Of a stretch of 49,377 nucleotides of DNA, positions 2,152 through 38,464 are shown one piece after another. Below the pieces are notes generated by a model. It was not told where the DNA came from and searched no databases. It saw only the letters and a program-made list of their open reading frames with translations. Source of the stretch: Gammaproteobacteria bacterium (lineage in GTDB: Bacteria; Pseudomonadota; Gammaproteobacteria; Natronospirales; JAJUFS01); the NCBI GenBank assembly GCA_033720895.1, contig JAWWBS010000012.1, positions 1-49,377 on the forward strand, read 5' to 3'. How positions within the stretch are numbered: position 1 is the stretch's first letter; each line of letters begins with the position of its first letter. A program made the position numbers and the translations under genes.

Positions 2152-3828
2152 ATGTCGACACGATTCAGAGACGTGGAGCTGCATGCACCGACGGGGCCGG
2201 AGCTGAGCTGCAAGGGCTGGGTGCAGGAGGCGGCACTCAGGATGCTGCACAACAACCTCGATCCGGCTGTGGCAGAGAAGCCGAAGGAACTGGTGGTGTA
2301 CGGTGGTATCGGCCGCGCGGCACGTGACTGGGAATCCTTCGATGCCATTGTCGAAACGCTGAAGCGCCTGGAAAACGACGAGACCATGCTGGTCCAGTCG
2401 GGCAAGCCGGTCGGCGTGTTCAAGACCTTCGAGACCGCGCCGCGCGTGTTGATCGCGAATTCCAACCTGGTCGGCGAGTGGGCGAACTGGGATCACTTCT
2501 TCGAGCTCGATAAGAAGGGCCTGATGATGTACGGCCAGATGACGGCCGGGTCCTGGATATACATCGGGTCCCAGGGCATCGTGCAGGGCACTTACGAAAC
2601 CTTTGCCGAAGCGGTGCGCCAGCATTACAACGGTGACGCCTCCGGCAAGTGGTTGCTCACCGGCGGCCTCGGCGGCATGGGTGGTGCGCAGCCGCTGGCA
2701 GCGGTATTCGCCGGCCTGTGCTGCATAGCTGTAGAAGTGGACGAGACACGCATCGACAAGCGCCTGGAAACGGGTTACGTCGACCGCAAGGCGACCTCGC
2801 TTGAAGAAGCCTACGCCATGCTCGACGAGGCGATGGAAAATGGCGAAGCGATCTCCATCGGCCTGCTGGGCAATGCGGCGGAAATTTTCGAGCAGATCAG
2901 CAAGAGCGATCGGCTGCCGGACATGGTCACCGACCAGACCTCGGCGCACGACCCGCTGAACGGTTACATCCCGGTGGGCTACTCGCTGGAAGACGCGGCC
3001 AAGCTGCGTGAGGCCGATCCGAAAAAATACGTAAAGCTGTCGAAGGATTCGATGGCGCAGCAGGTTCGCGCCATGCTGGCCCTGCAGGCGGCTGGCAAGC
3101 CGACCTTCGATTATGGCAACAACATTCGCGCCATGGCGCAGGACGCCGGCGTCGACAATGCCTTCGATTTCAAGGGTTTCGTACCGCTCTACATCCGACC
3201 GCTGTTCTGCAAGGGTGTGGGGCCGTTCCGCTGGTGCGCGCTTTCCGGCGACCCGGAGGACATCTACAAGACCGACGCCAAGGCTCGTGAGCTCTTCCCG
3301 GATAACGAGAAGCTGCACACCTGGCTGGACAAGGCGCGCGAGCGTATCCAGTTCCAGGGCCTGCCGTCACGCATATGCTGGCTGGGCTACAAGGAACGCC
3401 ACCTGCTGGGCCTGGCGTTCAACGAGATGGTGAAGAATGGCGAGCTGAAGGCGCCGATCGTGATCGGGCGCGATCACCTCGATTCGGGCTCCGTCGCCTC
3501 GCCGAACCGCGAGACCGAGGGCATGAAGGATGGTTCCGATGCCGTGGCCGACTGGCCGATCCTGAATGCCATGCTGAACACGGCAGGTGGAGCCAGCTGG
3601 GTCAGCTTCCACCATGGCGGCGGTGTCGGCATGGGTTACTCCTTGCATTCCGGCGTGGTAATCGTGGCCGATGGCAGCGAGCGTGCCGAGCAGCAGCTGT
3701 CGCGCGTGCTGGTGAACGATCCGGGTACCGGGGTGATGCGCCATGCGGACGCCGGTTACCAGCATGCCATCGATATCGCCAAGGAACGTGGTCTCGACAT
3801 GCCCCTGGTTACAGGAAAGAAGGGCTGA
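2152..3828 (+). CDS. hutU: Urocanate hydratase
   Basis: This 558-residue protein is full length for urocanase, which hydrates urocanate to imidazolonepropionate (histidine degradation step 2) using tightly bound NAD+. The [10 protein letters not shown] nucleotide-binding stretch lies near residues 168-177. Cys409 in RICWLG corresponds to the conserved active-site cysteine of the family. The gene is set apart from hutH and hutI, which lie 2.3 kb away on the other strand. It sits 18 bases behind purL and only 3 bases before a YbiI-like gene. The start is supported by the AGGGGA-type ribosome-binding site a few bases upstream. No separate promoter is obvious, so it may be expressed with purL. 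Confidence 0.97.
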
Positions 3829-10270: not shown

Positions 10271-11074
10271 ATGCGAGCGTTTGAAATTCGCCAACCGGTG
10301 GTTGATGCGATTCCGGTGGTTTGCAGCATTCCGCATACCGGGACCTACGTGCCTGATGGCATTCCGGAGCGCTGGACAAGTGATCATATCCGCAGCCTGC
10401 CGATGACGGACTGGCACCTGCATCACCTGTACGATTTTCTGCCGAGCCTGGGAGTTACCAGCATTCACGCCACCTGGTCGCGTTTTCTCTGCGACCTGAA
10501 TCGACCGCCCGAGCCGCGAGCGCTTTATCCGGGGCGTTTCGAGACCGGCATCGTCGCGGAACGCACGTTCTGGGGAGACGTGATCTGGGACAGCTACCCG
10601 GCCCGGCAGGAAATCGATCAATGGAAGGCGCAGGTCCATGTTCCCTATCACGAGGCGTTGAACGCACTGCTGGACGAGACGGCGGCCAGGTTCGGGCACT
10701 GTGTCCTGCTGGATCTTCACAGCGTGGCCTCGAAGGCCAGCGAGGTGCATCCCGAGCTCGAGTACGAGATCTATCTCGGCAATCGAGATGGAGACAGCTG
10801 CGCTGACTGGCTGATCGACTGCACGCATGAATTGATGGAAGCGGCGGGCCTGAAGGTGGTCCGCAACAATCCCTACAAGGGTGGTTACATCACCGATACC
10901 TACGGCCGACGCGATGACGTCGATGCCCTGCAGATCGAGATGTGCCAGCGAGTCTACATGGACGAGAACGAGCCCGGGGCTGCGCTGGACGACGAGCGTT
11001 TCGGCAAGGCCAGGCACATGCTGGAAGGCATTCTTGGCAGTCTCGCGACAGAGGCGAGCCGGAAGATCCGGTGA
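10271..11074 (+). CDS. hutG: N-formylglutamate deformylase (amidohydrolase)
   Basis: HutG hydrolyses N-formyl-L-glutamate to glutamate and formate, the last step of the five-enzyme histidine pathway. The 267-residue protein shows the family signature near the N terminus (CSIPHTGTYVP), the DLNRPPE motif, LDLHSVASKASEVHP with a likely metal-binding His, and NNPYKGGYIT. It follows hutF by 24 bases and ends at a strong terminator. With HutH, HutU, HutI and HutF it completes the route histidine to glutamate, ammonia (twice) and formate. Confidence 0.95.
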   Translation: MRAFEIRQPVVDAIPVVCSIPHTGTYVPDGIPERWTSDHIRSLPMTDWHLHHLYDFLPSLGVTSIHATWSRFLCDLNRPPEPRALYPGRFETGIVAERTFWGDVIWDSYPARQEIDQWKAQVHVPYHEALNALLDETAARFGHCVLLDLHSVASKASEVHPELEYEIYLGNRDGDSCADWLIDCTHELMEAAGLKVVRNNPYKGGYITDTYGRRDDVDALQIEMCQRVYMDENEPGAALDDERFGKARHMLEGILGSLATEASRKIR

Positions 11075-11082
11075 ACAGCAGC

Positions 11083-11111
11083 AAAAAGACCGCCCGGAGG
11101 CGGTCTTTTTT
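11083..11111. terminator. Bidirectional terminator after hutG
   Basis: GACCGCC (11088-11094) pairs with GGCGGTC (11099-11105) across the loop cgga. Five A lie on the left and six T on the right. It separates hutG from the convergent outer-membrane protein gene. Confidence 0.9.
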
Positions 11112-11134
11112 CGTGGCCCGGCCGAGCGGCCGGT

Positions 11135-26314: not shown

Positions 26315-26824
26315 ATGAAGGGCCAACGCATTCCCGCAGGCACGGTTTTCCGTTCGCCAGTGCATTTCCTGGCCTTCGGTTTCGGCAGCGGCCTCGCACC
26401 GGTAGCGCCCGGTACGGTCGGCACGCTGGCGGCCGTGCCTGCCTGGCTCGGCATCGCCATGCTGCCCGCGTGGTGGCAGGTCGGAGTGGTCGTTGCAGCG
26501 ATGGTGGTCGGTATCTGGCTGTGCGGTCGCAGTGCCGGGATGCTGGGTGTTCACGATCACGGTGGTATCGTCTGGGACGAATTCGTCGGCCTGTGGCTGA
26601 CGATGTTGCTGGCACCGACGGCCGGCCTCGGCGGCGACTGGCCGTGGCTGCTTGGCGGATTCCTTGCTTTCCGCCTGTTCGATATCGCCAAGCCCTGGCC
26701 CATCAAGCGCCTGGATCGTGACGTTGCTGGCGGGCTGGGAATCATGCTGGATGATATCCTTGCAGCTGTTTACGCAGCGGCTTTGCTGCGGATCGTGCAG
26801 TACGTACTGACGATTTTTCAATGA
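26315..26824 (+). CDS. pgpA: Phosphatidylglycerophosphatase A
   Basis: PgpA dephosphorylates phosphatidylglycerol phosphate in the inner membrane. The start at 26315 (MKGQRI) gives 169 residues, the usual size. A GAGGGTGG ribosome-binding site precedes it. The in-frame ATG at 26294, which would overlap thiL, is less likely. The motifs are GFGSGLAPVAPGTVGT and the acidic HDHGGIVWDEFVG region, with three or four hydrophobic membrane segments. Its TGA stop overlaps the ATG of the next gene, a protein kinase, by four bases. Confidence 0.93.
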   Translation: MKGQRIPAGTVFRSPVHFLAFGFGSGLAPVAPGTVGTLAAVPAWLGIAMLPAWWQVGVVVAAMVVGIWLCGRSAGMLGVHDHGGIVWDEFVGLWLTMLLAPTAGLGGDWPWLLGGFLAFRLFDIAKPWPIKRLDRDVAGGLGIMLDDILAAVYAAALLRIVQYVLTIFQ

Positions 26825-28149
26825 ATCATGGCAAGCCGGCCAGTTCCAGGCCGGGTATCAGGACGACAATGAAGATCGAGAAACTCGGCAAGTACATCAT
26901 TACCCGCGAGCTCGGCAAGGGCGGTTCGGGTACGGTCTACCTCTGCCACGATCCCTACAATCAGCGCGATGTCGCCTTGAAGCTGTACAACATCGGCGAG
27001 GGCCTGTCCGAGGACCAGGCGCGCAGCCGGCGCAAGGTCTTCTTCAACGAAGCGCACATGTCGGGCCTGTTGAACCATCCGAACATCCTGCCGATCTACG
27101 ATGCCGGCGAGGAAGATGGTCAGTGCTACGTGGTCATGGAATACGTGCGTGGTGCCAAGCCACTGTCGACATTCTGCGAGCCACAGAATCTCCTGCCGAT
27201 ACGGAAGATCGTCGAGGTCTCCTTCAAGTGTGCCAAGGCGCTGGATTATGCCCATCGCAAGGGCGTGATCCACCGCGACATCAAGCCCAGCAATATCATG
27301 ATGACGGGCGAAGGTGATGTCAGGATCGTCGATTTCGGCATCGCCCAGAACGACAACATCGAGCTGACACCGATGTCCGGTCTGGTCGGCTCGCCCAGCT
27401 ACATGGCGCCGGAGCAGTTGCGCGAAGAGAAAGTCAGCAACCAGGCCGATGTCTATTCGCTCGGCGTGCTGATGTACGAATTGTTGACCGGCAAGCGACC
27501 CTACTATGGAGAGAACCTGTCGCGCCTGGTTCACCAGGTGCTGTATGCAACGCCACTGCCTGTGCATCGCTTGCGATCCGAGACGCCGCCCTCGCTGGAG
27601 GCGATAGTCGAGAAGGCGATGGCGAAGGACCGGTCCAAGCGCTACAAGACGGCAATGGAAATGTCGGTAGCGTTGACGCGCGCATTCAACGACCTGGGCA
27701 AGCAGGCCAAGGAAGTGACCGAGCAGGAACGCTTCAGCATGGTTCGCAAGCTCGAATTCTTCAGGGAGTTCACCTACCCGGAAGTCTGGGAGGTGCTGAA
27801 TGCCTCGAAGTGGGAAACCCATGACAAGGGCGAATCAATCATCGTCGAGGGCGAGATCGACGACTCCTTCTTCATTATCGTGTCCGGTGAGGTCAACGTC
27901 ACCAAGGACGGCAAGATGCTCGGTCGCCTGAAGGAAGGCGATTGTTTCGGCGAGATGGGCTATCTTTCTAAGACGGAACGCACGGCGACCGTGGTATCCG
28001 ACAATGGCGTGGCGGTGATGAGGATCAACTCGACCCTGATCGACCAGGCATCCATGGAATGCCAGCTTCGTTTCCACAAGGTCTTTCTCAAGACCCTGAT
28101 CGAGCGGTTGACCCGGACCAGCGAGCGAGTGGTGAAGGAAGACAAGTAA
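26821..28149 (+). CDS. Ser/Thr protein kinase with C-terminal cyclic-nucleotide-binding domain (first of a pair)
   Basis: This 442-residue cytoplasmic protein has no membrane segment. The Hanks-type kinase domain (about 25-290) looks active: glycine loop GKGGSG (32-37), Lys54 in ALKLY, catalytic HRDIKPSN (Asp153), DFG at 171-173 and APEQ. The activation segment ends GSPSYMAPE, with Ser where Thr is usual. A CNB/cNMP domain follows at about 314-430. Its phosphate-binding cassette keeps FGE (Glu378) and ERTATV (Arg387), the residues that hold the cyclic phosphate in CRP/PKA domains. The start is coupled to pgpA (ATGA). An internal ATG at 26869 is an alternative. The stop overlaps the next kinase gene (TAATG). 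Confidence 0.9.
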   Translation: MNHGKPASSRPGIRTTMKIEKLGKYIITRELGKGGSGTVYLCHDPYNQRDVALKLYNIGEGLSEDQARSRRKVFFNEAHMSGLLNHPNILPIYDAGEEDGQCYVVMEYVRGAKPLSTFCEPQNLLPIRKIVEVSFKCAKALDYAHRKGVIHRDIKPSNIMMTGEGDVRIVDFGIAQNDNIELTPMSGLVGSPSYMAPEQLREEKVSNQADVYSLGVLMYELLTGKRPYYGENLSRLVHQVLYATPLPVHRLRSETPPSLEAIVEKAMAKDRSKRYKTAMEMSVALTRAFNDLGKQAKEVTEQERFSMVRKLEFFREFTYPEVWEVLNASKWETHDKGESIIVEGEIDDSFFIIVSGEVNVTKDGKMLGRLKEGDCFGEMGYLSKTERTATVVSDNGVAVMRINSTLIDQASMECQLRFHKVFLKTLIERLTRTSERVVKEDK

Positions 28150-29549
28150 TGGCGGACAGGAAAACCCGGCCAATGGAGCCCTCGCAGAAAACCAGCCCGA
28201 TGCAGGCCGGAACCCAGCCCATGCCCGAGGGCCAGGCGCCGCAGGCTGCCGCCGGCAAGAAAGCTCCGACCAGGATGCCGAAGAAGCTGGGCAAGTACCG
28301 CCTCAAGAAGGAGCTCGGGCGTGGCAGCTCCGGCATGGTCTACCTGGGCAAGGACCCCTTCGAGGACCGCGAGGTCGCGATCAAGATCTATTACGGCGAC
28401 GACGAGCTCTCGCCGCAGCAGGCCAACCTGCAATCCAAGCTGTTCTTCAATGAGGCCCACCTGGCGGGGCAGCTGAAGCATCCGAACATCCTGCCGATAC
28501 ACGATGCTGGCGAGGAAGAAGGGCAGCGCTACGTGGTCATGGAATACCTCCCGGACACCCAGCCCCTTTCGAATTTTGCGAAGAACAGCAACCTGCTGCC
28601 GCTGGAGAAGGTGGTGGAGATATTTTTCTCGGCCGCCAAGGCGCTGGATTATGCCCATTCGAATGGCGTGGTTCACAGGGACATCAAGCCGGCCAATATC
28701 CTGATGAACTCCCGTGGTCACACCCTGATTGTCGATTTCGGCATAGCCAAGTCGTCCGGCATCAAGGATGTCGAGCTGCTGGGCACCATCGGGACGCCGC
28801 GTTACATGTCGCCCGAACAGATTCGGGGCGAGAGCGTCGGCAACCAGACAGACCTTTATTCACTGGGTGTCAGTGTGTACGAGCTCCTGACCGGCATGTC
28901 GCCATATTACGCATCCACGTTGAACGAGCTTACCCACAAGATCCTCAAGGACAATCCGGTGCCGGTCAGCGAGTATCGGCCGGACCTGCCTGAAATCCTG
29001 TCTCGTGTCGTCATGCGCTGCATGCGCAAGGATCCGCGCAAGCGATACCAGACCGGTCTCGATATCGCCGGTGACCTGGCCTACATTTTCGACGAGATCA
29101 GCGAGGCCACGCAGGAATTGCCGGAAGAGGAACGTTTTCGCCTGACCAGGGATCTCAAGTTCTTCTCGCTGTTCGAGGATGAAGAGCTGCAGGATGTATT
29201 GCGGGCTGGCGAATGGAAACAGTACGCCAGTGGCCAGAACATCATCACCGAAGGCGAGGAGGATGACAGCTTCTTTGTCATCGTGTCCGGTGATGTATCG
29301 GTCTGGAAGAACGACACCGAGCTGGGCGTGCTGACCGAAGGTGACGTGTTCGGCGAGATGGGCTTCAATGGTCGCGTCGAGCGCACCGCAACCGTGCGGG
29401 CTCGCGGTAGCGTGTCAGTGCTCTGCCTGAACCAGCAGGCGATCGAACGGGCTTCGCCAGATGCGCAGCTGAAGTTCAACAAGGTGTTCGTCAATACGCT
29501 GATCGACAGGCTGGCACGCACCAACGAAAAGCTCTCGCAGCGCGGCTGA
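28149..29549 (+). CDS. Ser/Thr protein kinase with C-terminal cyclic-nucleotide-binding domain (second of a pair)
   Basis: This 466-residue protein is a paralogue of the preceding kinase, with which it shares long identical patches (LFFNEAHLAG, HPNILPI, KALDYAH). An N-terminal tail of about 40 residues is rich in Pro, Gln and Ala. The kinase core has GRGSSG, Lys79 (AIKIY), HRDIKPAN (Asp178), DFG from Asp196 and GTPRYMSPE with the usual activation-loop Thr. The CNB domain (about 340-455) keeps Glu403 and Arg412 of the cassette (FGEMGF, ERTATV). The ATG overlaps the upstream TAA by one base, so the two kinases are made together. The start upstream in another frame is excluded by this overlap. 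Substrates are unknown. Confidence 0.9.
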   Translation: MADRKTRPMEPSQKTSPMQAGTQPMPEGQAPQAAAGKKAPTRMPKKLGKYRLKKELGRGSSGMVYLGKDPFEDREVAIKIYYGDDELSPQQANLQSKLFFNEAHLAGQLKHPNILPIHDAGEEEGQRYVVMEYLPDTQPLSNFAKNSNLLPLEKVVEIFFSAAKALDYAHSNGVVHRDIKPANILMNSRGHTLIVDFGIAKSSGIKDVELLGTIGTPRYMSPEQIRGESVGNQTDLYSLGVSVYELLTGMSPYYASTLNELTHKILKDNPVPVSEYRPDLPEILSRVVMRCMRKDPRKRYQTGLDIAGDLAYIFDEISEATQELPEEERFRLTRDLKFFSLFEDEELQDVLRAGEWKQYASGQNIITEGEEDDSFFVIVSGDVSVWKNDTELGVLTEGDVFGEMGFNGRVERTATVRARGSVSVLCLNQQAIERASPDAQLKFNKVFVNTLIDRLARTNEKLSQRG

Positions 29550-29563
29550 CTCTCGCCGCATGT

Positions 29564-29592
29564 AAAAAAGCCCGGCAGTTGCCGGGCTTTTT
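29564..29592. terminator. Bidirectional terminator between the kinase pair and folE2
   Basis: GCCCGGC (29570-29576) pairs with GCCGGGC (29581-29587). Six A precede the hairpin and five T follow it. It ends the kinase operon rightward and folE2 leftward. Confidence 0.9.
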
Positions 29593-30991: not shown

Positions 30992-31408
30992 ATGTCGCTC
31001 AAGGGAACGAAAACCGCTGACATGCTCCGCCAGGCATTTCGGCTGGAAGCGGAACTGAATCGCGTGTTGTTGTATTTTGCGGCCAAGGCCGATGTCGAGG
31101 GCAATAACGAAGCCGGCGCGGCATTTCGAGCCGCTGCCGAACGGGGCACCAGCCAGGCTGCCGGCCATCTTGAATACCTCGAGTCGGTATCCGACCCGGT
31201 GTCGGGCTTGCCAATGGGCTCGACCGCGCAGAACCTCAGGGCAGCCTCGGCTGCGCAAGGCCAGGCGGCCGAGAGTTTCTATCCCGAGGCGGCGATCATT
31301 GCCCGCGAAGAAGGGTTCGGCGAAATTGCCGATTGGTTCGAGGCATTGGCCAAGGCAGCGGACAACCAGGTAAAAAGACTGGCCAAGGCAAGCCAGGAAA
31401 CGGACTGA
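30992..31408 (+). CDS. Rubrerythrin-like ferritin-fold protein lacking most diiron ligands
   Basis: This 138-residue protein starts MSLKGTKTADML and follows the N-terminal four-helix domain of rubrerythrin along its length, including YPEAAIIAREEGFGEIADWFEALA. The C-terminal rubredoxin domain is absent. By hand alignment with classical rubrerythrin only the first ligand Glu (Glu19, LEAELNR) remains. The first ExxH motif is replaced around ERGTSQAAGH, the mid-chain glutamates by Ala/Ser, and the last ExxH by KAADNQVKR. It probably cannot bind a normal diiron centre. The start is supported by GAGGAAG upstream. The EncFtn-type gene follows 50 bases later, probably in the same operon. Confidence 0.75.
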   Translation: MSLKGTKTADMLRQAFRLEAELNRVLLYFAAKADVEGNNEAGAAFRAAAERGTSQAAGHLEYLESVSDPVSGLPMGSTAQNLRAASAAQGQAAESFYPEAAIIAREEGFGEIADWFEALAKAADNQVKRLAKASQETD

Positions 31409-31458
31409 AGCAGCGGGCCAGCGAGCCGCGCGACATTCATCAAGCAGGAGACAACCGC

Positions 31459-31764
31459 ATGTCACACGAGGGTTATCACGAGCCTGTCGAGGAGCTCAGC
31501 GATGAAACCAGGGACTTCCACCGTGCGATCGAGTCGCTGATGGAAGAACTGGAGGCGGTCGACTGGTACCAGCAGCGCATCGATGCCTGCAAGGACAAGG
31601 AACTCGCAGCCATCCTGGCCCATAACCGGGACGAGGAAATCGAGCATGCTGCCATGGTGCTGGAGTGGATCCGTCGTCGAAACGGACGGTTCGACAAGGA
31701 ATTGAAGGATTACCTGTTTACCGATAAGCCCATCGTCGACCTCGAGAAACATCACCACGACTGA
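31459..31764 (+). CDS. Encapsulated-ferritin-family protein (EncFtn-like), no encapsulin neighbour
   Basis: This 101-residue protein closely matches the encapsulin-associated ferritin EncFtn, a two-helix ferroxidase that forms its iron site between subunits. MEELEAVDWYQQRIDA and AILAHNRDEEIEHAAM are diagnostic. The expected ferroxidase ligands Glu30, Glu60 and His63 are all present. It stops soon after YLFTDKPIVDLEKHHHD, so the C-terminal encapsulin-targeting peptide found in cargo EncFtn appears to be missing. No shell gene is adjacent: a terminator and parE follow. It would oxidise Fe(II), but where the iron is stored is unclear. A CAGGAGA ribosome-binding site precedes the ATG. Confidence 0.85.
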   Translation: MSHEGYHEPVEELSDETRDFHRAIESLMEELEAVDWYQQRIDACKDKELAAILAHNRDEEIEHAAMVLEWIRRRNGRFDKELKDYLFTDKPIVDLEKHHHD

Positions 31765-36284: not shown

Positions 36285-38366
36285 TCAGGCGGGCAGCTTG
36301 GCATCTTCGGCCATCACGACCTCCGGCTCCTGCACGTAGTTGCCCTGGATGTAGTTGACGCCCAACTGCCACAGCACGGCCATCGTGTTGGCGTTTTCGA
36401 CGCGCTCCGCCACGGATTCGATGCTCATCTCGCGCGACTTTTCGAGGATGGCCTGGACCTTCTCCCGCTTCTCGTCGTCACTGCCGATGACCTGCATGAA
36501 AGAGCCGTCGATCTTCACGAACGCCATGGGGATGTGCTGGAACATCTGCATCGAGTTGTGACCGATGCCGAAGTGTTCCAGGGCGACGAGCTGACCGAAT
36601 TTCTTGGCGGTTTCAGCGACAGCCTTCGATTCGTTCAGGCGCTTCTCCGCGGTCGACTCGGCAATCTGGAACACCACCGACCCCTTTTGCGGTTTGTACT
36701 TGCCGAGCACGCCGTCCAGCCATGACACGAATTTGCTGTCTGCCAGGCTTTGCTCCGAAATGCGGATGAAGAACTGGGCCTTCTTGCCTTCCGTGTGGCG
36801 CTCGACCAGCCGAGACATCGAGTTCTGCAGGATCCAGCGATCGATACCGGTCATGAGGTTGTTGCGCTCGGCGGCCGGAATGAAATCACCCGGCATCACT
36901 TCCTCACCGTCCTCGGTCTTCATGCGCACGAGGATATCGAACATTTCGCTGACATCGCCTTCCAGGCTGGCAATGGGCTGGAATACGAGCTGGAAACGAT
37001 TGTCCTTGAGTGCACCGGTGATGCGCTTGACCCAGCCGGCGTCGAGCACCTTGCCTTCCTTGTCGACCTCTGCAGGGGCGTAACGCACGGCCTTGTTGCC
37101 ACCTTTGTCGCGAGCTTCCTTGTTGGCAAGCTGCGCCAGCGAGATCAGCTGGCCGGCGTTCTTGAATTCGTTCTTGTAGTCGGCGTAGCCGATGCTGACC
37201 GTCATGCTGGTCGACTGGCCACCGGCTTCGAATACCCTGCCGGCCACGTCTGCCTGCAGCTTCTCGGCAAAGGCATCGAGTTCCGCATCGTTCTTGCGGG
37301 TGATCACGGCAGTGAAGATGTTGCCGCCAAAACGTGCCAGCAGATCCTGCTCTTCGACGCTCTCCCGCAGGTGGGCTGCCAGCAGTTTCAGGACGTTGTC
37401 GGATGCCAGCGGGCCGACCTTTTCCTCGATCTGCGAGAAATGGTCCGGCTTCAGGAACATCAGGGCGCTGGCACCGGCAGGCTTGTTCTTGATGGTCTGG
37501 TTGACCAGTTCGACAAAATGGTGGCGATGGAAGAGTCCCGTCAGCGGGTCACGCTTGCCGATTTCGTCCATCTCGGCCTGCATCTCGGCCCTGAGCTCGC
37601 TGGTGTCGCCCTCGCCACGGATGGCAATCTCGATACACGGCTCGCCATCAAGTTCCGTCTGGTCGAATTCCAGCTTGGTGTCGAAGGTCTCGCCGTTCTT
37701 CATGCCCTGCACAGACAGCGTGCCCACTTCCTTGCCCTTGTTGGTGGCAACCAGCGCTTCGCGAAGGGCGTCCTGATCGCCCTTGGCGAACAGGTCCATG
37801 ATCGTGTAGCCCTCGACATCGTCCGGGTCGGTGAAGCCGAACATCTCGGCAAATGACGGGTTTGCCTGGATCAGGATGCCGTCCTGCGCATAGGCGATCG
37901 AGTCCCCCGATTCGGCCAGGAATTCCTGGAAGCGTGACTGGTATTCGCCCACCAGGGCCTGGGCCTCTCGCAGGTCGCGGCGCGACTGAACCGCCGCGAG
38001 CTCGCGCTTGATAACCGCCAGCAGGAGGCGCTCGTTGTCCAGGGTCAGCAGCGCATGGGCGCCACGCTCGATCACCACGGCCATCGCGTCTTCGTCGAGC
38101 TTGCTGGCCACGGCCAGCACGGCAGAGTCTGGCGAGAGCTTCTGCTGGGAGCTGATTACCTCGTGAATCGGTGCTTTCTCGACTCTCAGGAAGGCAAAGA
38201 TCAGGTCGGGTTTCTGGTCCTGGATGATCTCCTCGGCATCTTCCAGCGACGAGGCCCAGCTGGAGCGCACGGCATGGCCTGCGCCTCGCAAAATGCCATT
38301 GAGTTTCTCGGCATTGTTCTGCGATTGCGAGATCACCAGAATGGGCAGGAAATTGCGTTCGACCAA
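36285..38366 (-). CDS. fimX: FimX-like REC-PAS-GGDEF-EAL protein with degenerate catalytic motifs
   Basis: A TTG start at 38366 with AGAGGA upstream gives 693 residues. It is preferred over a distal ATG at 38450, which lies in intergenic-looking DNA. The order is a receiver-like domain without a clear phospho-Asp (about 5-120), PAS (about 145-255), GGDEF-like (270-420; GGNIF at 347-351 instead of GGDEF) and EAL-like (440-690; FDILVR at 476-481, EHFGIG at 597-602 instead of DDFGTG). Both enzymatic motifs are lost, as in Pseudomonas/Xanthomonas FimX, a c-di-GMP receptor that drives type IV pilus assembly. Arg481, Lys618 and Glu657 remain and fit ligand binding. It is probably a c-di-GMP sensor, not an enzyme. 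Confidence 0.8.
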   Translation of the reverse strand: MVERNFLPILVISQSQNNAEKLNGILRGAGHAVRSSWASSLEDAEEIIQDQKPDLIFAFLRVEKAPIHEVISSQQKLSPDSAVLAVASKLDEDAMAVVIERGAHALLTLDNERLLLAVIKRELAAVQSRRDLREAQALVGEYQSRFQEFLAESGDSIAYAQDGILIQANPSFAEMFGFTDPDDVEGYTIMDLFAKGDQDALREALVATNKGKEVGTLSVQGMKNGETFDTKLEFDQTELDGEPCIEIAIRGEGDTSELRAEMQAEMDEIGKRDPLTGLFHRHHFVELVNQTIKNKPAGASALMFLKPDHFSQIEEKVGPLASDNVLKLLAAHLRESVEEQDLLARFGGNIFTAVITRKNDAELDAFAEKLQADVAGRVFEAGGQSTSMTVSIGYADYKNEFKNAGQLISLAQLANKEARDKGGNKAVRYAPAEVDKEGKVLDAGWVKRITGALKDNRFQLVFQPIASLEGDVSEMFDILVRMKTEDGEEVMPGDFIPAAERNNLMTGIDRWILQNSMSRLVERHTEGKKAQFFIRISEQSLADSKFVSWLDGVLGKYKPQKGSVVFQIAESTAEKRLNESKAVAETAKKFGQLVALEHFGIGHNSMQMFQHIPMAFVKIDGSFMQVIGSDDEKREKVQAILEKSREMSIESVAERVENANTMAVLWQLGVNYIQGNYVQEPEVVMAEDAKLPA

Positions 38367-38403
38367 GACCGTTCCTCTGAATAGATAGTCAGCTTCCGTA
38401 CAG

Positions 38404-38413
38404 AACGTACGTT
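38404..38413. promoter_or_regulatory. Perfect 10-bp palindrome upstream of the FimX-like gene
   Basis: AACGTACGTT lies 38 bases before the TTG start, inside a 98-base gap. Its position would suit an operator or the core of a leader element. No clear promoter boxes accompany it. Confidence 0.3.
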
Positions 38414-38464
38414 GTAAAGGATAACATCCGTTGTTTCCAGTTGTTTGCACCCAAAATCAGGGTC

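Follow-up and report, generated by a model that had tools for sequence, protein, structure and literature searches.

Tandem kinases with C-terminal cyclic-nucleotide-binding domains as candidate cAMP-regulated enzymes of a gammaproteobacterium

The stretch of DNA analysed here (the window; the 49,377-nt contig JAWWBS010000012.1, forward strand) carries two adjacent genes, termed K1 and K2, that each encode a Ser/Thr kinase with a cyclic-nucleotide-binding (CNB) domain at the C-terminal end. Domain, pocket and distribution analyses lead us to favour the view that K1 and K2 are soluble PknB-type kinases whose activity is probably under the control of a small ligand, most likely cyclic AMP (cAMP), bound at the CNB domain. 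For most soluble Hanks kinases of bacteria the activating signal is unknown, and bacterial cAMP is usually discussed via CRP. The family described here joins a Hanks kinase to a putative cAMP sensor in about one fifth of the sampled gammaproteobacterial genomes, natural pocket-loss variants included, and would make directly testable both cAMP-dependent protein phosphorylation in bacteria and the notion that PKA/PKG-type gating arose more than once.

K1 and K2 combine an intact kinase with a canonical CNB domain

Both genes (K1, 26821-28149, 442 aa; K2, 28149-29549, 466 aa; + strand) were assigned from their reading frames, Pfam and AlphaFold models, and their products match the Pfam models Pkinase (E 8e-53 for K1, 7e-50 for K2) and cNMP_binding (E 6e-16 and 2e-16) far over the curated cut-offs. 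The kinase domain (PF00069; 26896-27651 in K1 and 28296-29048 in K2, both +) precedes the CNB beta-roll (PF00027) in both chains. The beta-roll of K1 (27820-28041, +) contains the phosphate cassette FGEMGYLSKTERTATV with Glu378 and Arg387 (442-aa numbering; codons 27952-27954 and 27979-27981), and that of K2 (29217-29450, +) contains FGEMGFNGRVERTATV with Glu403 and Arg412 (29355-29357 and 29382-29384). The VAxK lysine, the HRD aspartate and the DFG aspartate are kept in both proteins. An earlier, sequence-only reading of the window had described two such kinases with these residues, and the description holds exactly. As judged from these motifs, K1 and K2 are Hanks-type Ser/Thr kinases with intact catalytic residues and predicted phosphotransfer activity, and their CNB domains have a canonical beta-roll cassette predicted to bind a cyclic nucleotide. 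No transmembrane stretch was detected in either protein (best 19-residue hydropathy 1.1), nor did Pfam match any PASTA repeats; a helix-turn-helix (HTH) match was likewise absent from both, the chain stopping after the C-terminal helix (C-helix). The proposal that these are soluble, ligand-gated kinases is thereby upheld for solubility, while ligand gating is plausible.

The structure predictions suggested by the sequence-only reading gave, for each protein, two compact domains and a terminal helix of ~30 residues, at a mean predicted local distance difference test score of 85.5 for K1 and 80.5 for K2; the predicted template modelling score of ~0.6 leaves the relative placement of the domains uncertain. 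Disorder is predicted for the N-terminal 40 residues of K2. The best structural match of the K1 kinase domain is PknB (Z 34.5, root mean square deviation 1.8 A, 257 residues). With regard to membership of the AGC group, to which the PKG kinase domain belongs, PknB is the nearest solved structure, and PKG kinase domains match by sequence too. Searched against the PDB, the CNB profile retrieved the regulatory domains of PKG and PKA (E down to 5e-52), cAMP-binding Bd1971, PycTIR and MloK1. Foldseek and VIA searches with the full K1 model returned kinase domains only, so that sequence profiles and the secondary structure of the model are the basis for assigning the CNB fold. A viral fold search gave generic kinases only, and plasmid and phage searches matched only the kinase domain and thus do not suggest a mobile-element origin.

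The activation loops differ by a Ser in K1 and a Thr in K2, which had been read as a hint of division of labour. This interpretation is not supported: the residue is the conserved P+1 position of the G-S/T-P-x-Y motif, which we take to be the equivalent of PKA Thr201, and not a phosphosite. Its identity tracks the subfamily: the K1 clade has GSPS, the K2 clade GTPR.

The CNB pocket and C-helix resemble those of CRP

In CRP, the cAMP pocket comprises Glu72, Arg82, Ser83, Thr127 and Ser128, of which Thr127 and Ser128 contact cAMP from the C-helix. Alignment to Escherichia coli CRP with hhalign (probability 95.7, E 1e-8) brought the cassette Arg and the C-helix into register. On the NCBIfam CRP model, Thr416/Ser417 of K1 (P0001 numbering; 28117-28122, +), which lie inside the long C-terminal helix of the structural model, and Thr458/Asn459 of K2 (29520-29525, +) fall on CRP Thr127/Ser128, a placement that assumes ungapped last residues of the match. 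The equivalents of the CRP set are accordingly Glu, Arg, Thr, Thr and Ser in K1 and Glu, Arg, Thr, Thr and Asn in K2, and the substitutions, at Ser83 in both proteins and at Ser128 in K2 only, are conservative.

The family was searched for in 56 relatives, 369 gammaproteobacterial genomes and one named genome collection, and 111 full-length members were extracted. Of the 111, 110 have the cassette Glu and 99 the Arg, as read from the alignment listing, in which four more sequences flagged by position merely have a shifted loop. The 12 members that lack the Arg are eleven K1-type orthologs forming one clade in a sister family (f4) and one other sequence.

Class III cyclases accompany the family

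Three class III cyclases are encoded in the window genome, two of them CHASE2-linked and one fused to an FHA domain, and all three carry the adenylate-type Lys; no class I cyclase was found there. Of the 73 genomes with kinase-CNB genes in the 369-genome set, 65 have class III cyclases, compared with 171 of the 296 without such genes (odds ratio 5.9, p 1e-7). For class I cyclases no such link is seen (20/73 versus 87/296, odds ratio 0.9), which speaks against a mere effect of genome size behind the class III association. Furthermore, 33 of 60 kinase-CNB genomes with a cyclase keep the C-helix Thr-Ser/Thr/Asn motif, but none of the ten in which no class I or III cyclase was detected (p 0.001), a comparison in which some of the ten genomes are incomplete and related genomes are counted separately. 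Loss of the motif in these genomes fits the view that cAMP recognition decayed in cells lacking cAMP. Of the ligands proposed beforehand (cAMP, cGMP or cyclic di-GMP (c-di-GMP)), cAMP is thus the likeliest, on the strength of the C-helix Thr-Ser/Thr-Asn pairs, the three class III cyclases and the class III co-occurrence.

The FHA cyclase (L262:4192-5130, +, contig C7; loci are coded L and genomes G), whose FHA domain is of the phosphothreonine-binding type, has a large Ser/Thr kinase (L262:5810-10336, -) and a PP2C phosphatase (10391-11119, -) at a distance of ~1 kb, an arrangement that suggests cAMP synthesis may itself be under Ser/Thr phosphorylation control. The genome encodes three PP2C-type phosphatases, which could reverse phosphorylation by K1 and K2. 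It also encodes another non-transcriptional CNB protein, in which a rhodanese domain comes after two CNB domains (L152:2788-3825, -, contig C64), as well as two adjacent genes with CNB as the sole detected domain (L155:2201-2638 and 2709-3494, both -, contig C6).

K1 occupies a conserved locus and the tandem is seen in one genome

All members share a single architecture, a PknB-like kinase of ~270 residues followed by one CNB domain and a C-terminal helix. Strong full-length members were found in 73 of the 369 gammaproteobacterial genomes sampled, and more distant ones occur in Burkholderiales, Desulfobacterales and other proteobacteria of the named collection; the kinase-CNB family is old. 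In each of the 11 order relatives with gene-called flanks, scored only as far as the contigs extend, the K1-type gene has thiL/pgpA on one side and folE2 on the other, and it holds the same place in four genomes from other families (G035, G291, G184 and G383), making K1 a stable part of the riboflavin-nusB-thiL-pgpA neighbourhood. The synteny survey downstream of pgpA that the sequence-only reading had proposed recovers a conserved K1-type gene; K1-K2 adjacency was seen in the window genome only, and the contig of its sole family relative, G001, stops at the K1 stop codon. K2 falls in a second and older subfamily, in which it groups with single extra copies in G004 and G006, both located elsewhere in those genomes, and the K2 clade is sister to the entire K1-type clade (FastTree support 0.95). 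K1 and K2 share 51% protein identity and ~69% DNA identity in alignable segments; a collapsed or mis-assembled repeat as the source of the tandem was rejected on the basis of these identities.

Kinase-CNB pairs of two other subfamilies, 1-3 genes apart, are present in at least 12 genomes and usually flank pgi (glucose-6-phosphate isomerase), a CBS-domain gene or a gene for a LysM-like protein, names that were assigned by reading the sequences. Pairing of kinase-CNB genes has thus arisen at least twice. Kinase-CNB genes around pgi and the CBS-domain gene are found in other gammaproteobacterial lineages at L200-L207, L060 and L215, often near nuo genes and psd; icd had been considered as a flank of these kinases and was dropped on reading the genes, the recurrent neighbour being pgi.

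Relation to known kinases and CNB proteins

Bacterial CNB domains attached to kinases were tabulated under 'Other_bacterial' in a 2007 CNB census, which suggested a role in protein phosphorylation (PMC2246266). Those entries resemble K1 and K2 in having a CNB domain and a kinase on one bacterial polypeptide with a canonical cassette, but they occupy a single table line without order, function or lineage, whereas the present family has a defined kinase-then-CNB order, conserved synteny, two subfamilies and a tandem. The kinase-CNB fusion as such has thus been known since 2007 and the family is widespread, so that to call it an undescribed signalling system was too strong. A literature search in which subscription journals were barely covered found no experimental work on any bacterial kinase that carries a CNB domain at its C-terminus, and a 2005 survey of prokaryotic kinase architectures leaves cNMP domains unmentioned.

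PKG, which is among the best PDB relatives of the CNB profile, likewise unites a Ser/Thr kinase and CNB in one chain, but it places several CNB domains before the kinase, whereas K1 and K2 have one CNB domain after a PknB-like kinase, on the opposite side as previously stated. The PknB-type PASTA kinases (Stk1, StkP, PknB) provide the closest solved kinase domain, with the NCBIfam PASTA-kinase model matching no more than the kinase domain; unlike them, K1 and K2 lack PASTA repeats and a membrane segment. E. coli CRP shares the cassette Glu/Arg and the C-helix Thr-Ser in register and differs in its output, which is DNA binding, K1 and K2 having no HTH. Bd1971 of Bdellovibrio, a solved cAMP-sensing EAL phosphodiesterase with a PKA-like CNB domain and a CRP-like C-helix dimer (PMC6717892), is similar as a bacterial CNB domain controlling a fused enzyme, whereas its sensor is N-terminal and its output is c-di-GMP hydrolysis.

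A model for cAMP-dependent kinase regulation and its alternatives

In order to rationalise regulation on the molecular level, we take Bd1971 as the precedent for the mechanism proposed here. cAMP from the class III cyclases of the cell would bind the beta-roll, with Glu contacting the ribose and Arg the phosphate. The adenine would be met by Thr-Ser of K1 or Thr-Asn of K2 from the long C-terminal helix, which would also pack into a CRP-like dimer. Movement of this helix, together with the helices joining the CNB domain to the kinase C-lobe, may then bring two kinase domains together or free them, allowing them to trans-autophosphorylate and subsequently act on soluble substrates. Of the individual steps, cAMP binding by K1 and K2 is somewhat probable; ligand control of kinase activity, given such binding, is likely, and dimerisation through the C-helix is reasonably probable.

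Several observations weigh against this reading. The co-occurrence tests ignore phylogeny and completeness, and six of the 73 kinase-CNB genomes in the 369-genome set have neither class I nor class III cyclases. K2 carries Asn at the CRP Ser128 position and its cassette diverges past FGEMG, and the loop Gly corresponding to PKA Gly169, a residue tied to cAMP allostery (PMC2246266), is Asp in both proteins; CRP also lacks Gly at this position, which would fit CRP-like rather than PKA-like coupling. Moreover, in K1 orthologs of sister family f4 the cassette Arg has been lost together with the C-helix Thr, the gene still being in place (L041, L043, L047, L048, L057, L059 and L160-L163), and a K1-type protein can therefore matter without cAMP. 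These orthologs may be natural variants that are ligand-independent or bind another ligand. The CNB domain could accordingly serve dimerisation or docking without any ligand, the kinases being constitutive or controlled by phosphorylation only: f4 and f3 orthologs hold gene and synteny despite broken or truncated pockets and C-helices, the six cyclase-free genomes are consistent with it, and conservation is higher for the C-helix motif QLRF..VF...LI.RL than for the C-helix Thr of the pocket. The Glu and Arg, however, are kept in most members, K1 and K2 included, and would be needless in a pure scaffold, and we consider this explanation quite improbable. A different ligand (cGMP, c-di-GMP, cUMP/cCMP or a nucleoside) gating the kinases in the same general way is also unlikely, though it has several points in its favour. 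The cassette Arg is followed by Thr, as in PKG (consensus PRTATV, PMC2246266); a PAS-GGDEF-EAL protein in the window (36285-38450, -) shows that c-di-GMP signalling also exists in the source genome; the structural relatives of the CNB domains include PycTIR, a sensor of the cUMP/cCMP type; and trypanosomatid PKA CNB pockets can switch to nucleosides on loss of the Arg (PMC10959531), which the f4 orthologs lack. Against it stand the full CRP cAMP set of K1 including the C-helix Thr-Ser, the adenylate-type Lys of all three cyclases and the association of the family with class III cyclases.

Beyond cAMP regulation of each kinase, K1 and K2 might form an obligate heteromer or a cascade in which one phosphorylates the other. 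The two genes overlap in TAATG (28147-28151, +), the K1 stop TAA at 28147-28149 sharing one base with the K2 ATG at 28149-28151; this overlap, noted beforehand, likely couples their translation, and co-translation makes K1-K2 heterodimers possible. The separate pairs around pgi in other genomes point in the same direction, but K1-type genes stand alone in most order relatives, K2-type genes are far away in G004 and G006 and adjacency is seen in one genome only, so that we hold an obligate partnership to be doubtful. The boldest version, a bacterial counterpart of PKA/PKG with a directly cAMP-gated kinase system, a co-translated K1-K2 heteromer and CRP-like dimerisation, from which some relatives lost cAMP sensing or switched ligand, is put forward as a tentative possibility; it would constitute a third gammaproteobacterial cAMP output beside CRP and enzyme- or channel-linked CNB proteins. 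A role as anti-phage defence kinases of the PD-T4-6 or MADS type is very improbable: PADLOC kinase models do match (E down to 3e-83), but the matches span the kinase domain only, as any PknB-type kinase would give, and the surroundings are a conserved housekeeping cluster (riboflavin/thiL/pgpA), not a defence island.

Organisation of the K1-K2 locus

K1 and K2 form one operon-like unit. Upstream lies pgpA (phosphatidylglycerophosphatase A; 26315-26824, +), named from its sequence and the conserved cluster beside thiL, whose TGA overlaps the first possible K1 ATG (ATGA). An alternative K1 ATG at 26869 would yield 426 aa and fits the N-terminus of the family relatives better. A promoter scan gave nothing above chance. 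The unit is closed by a strong intrinsic terminator between K2 and the convergent folE2 and common to both (29565-29592, no strand assigned; -21 kcal/mol, z -3.6), which has a 12-bp stem and a U tract. The window also carries an encapsulated-ferritin-like (EncFtn) gene (31333-31764, +; E 1e-43), which lies downstream of the kinases, a few genes away.

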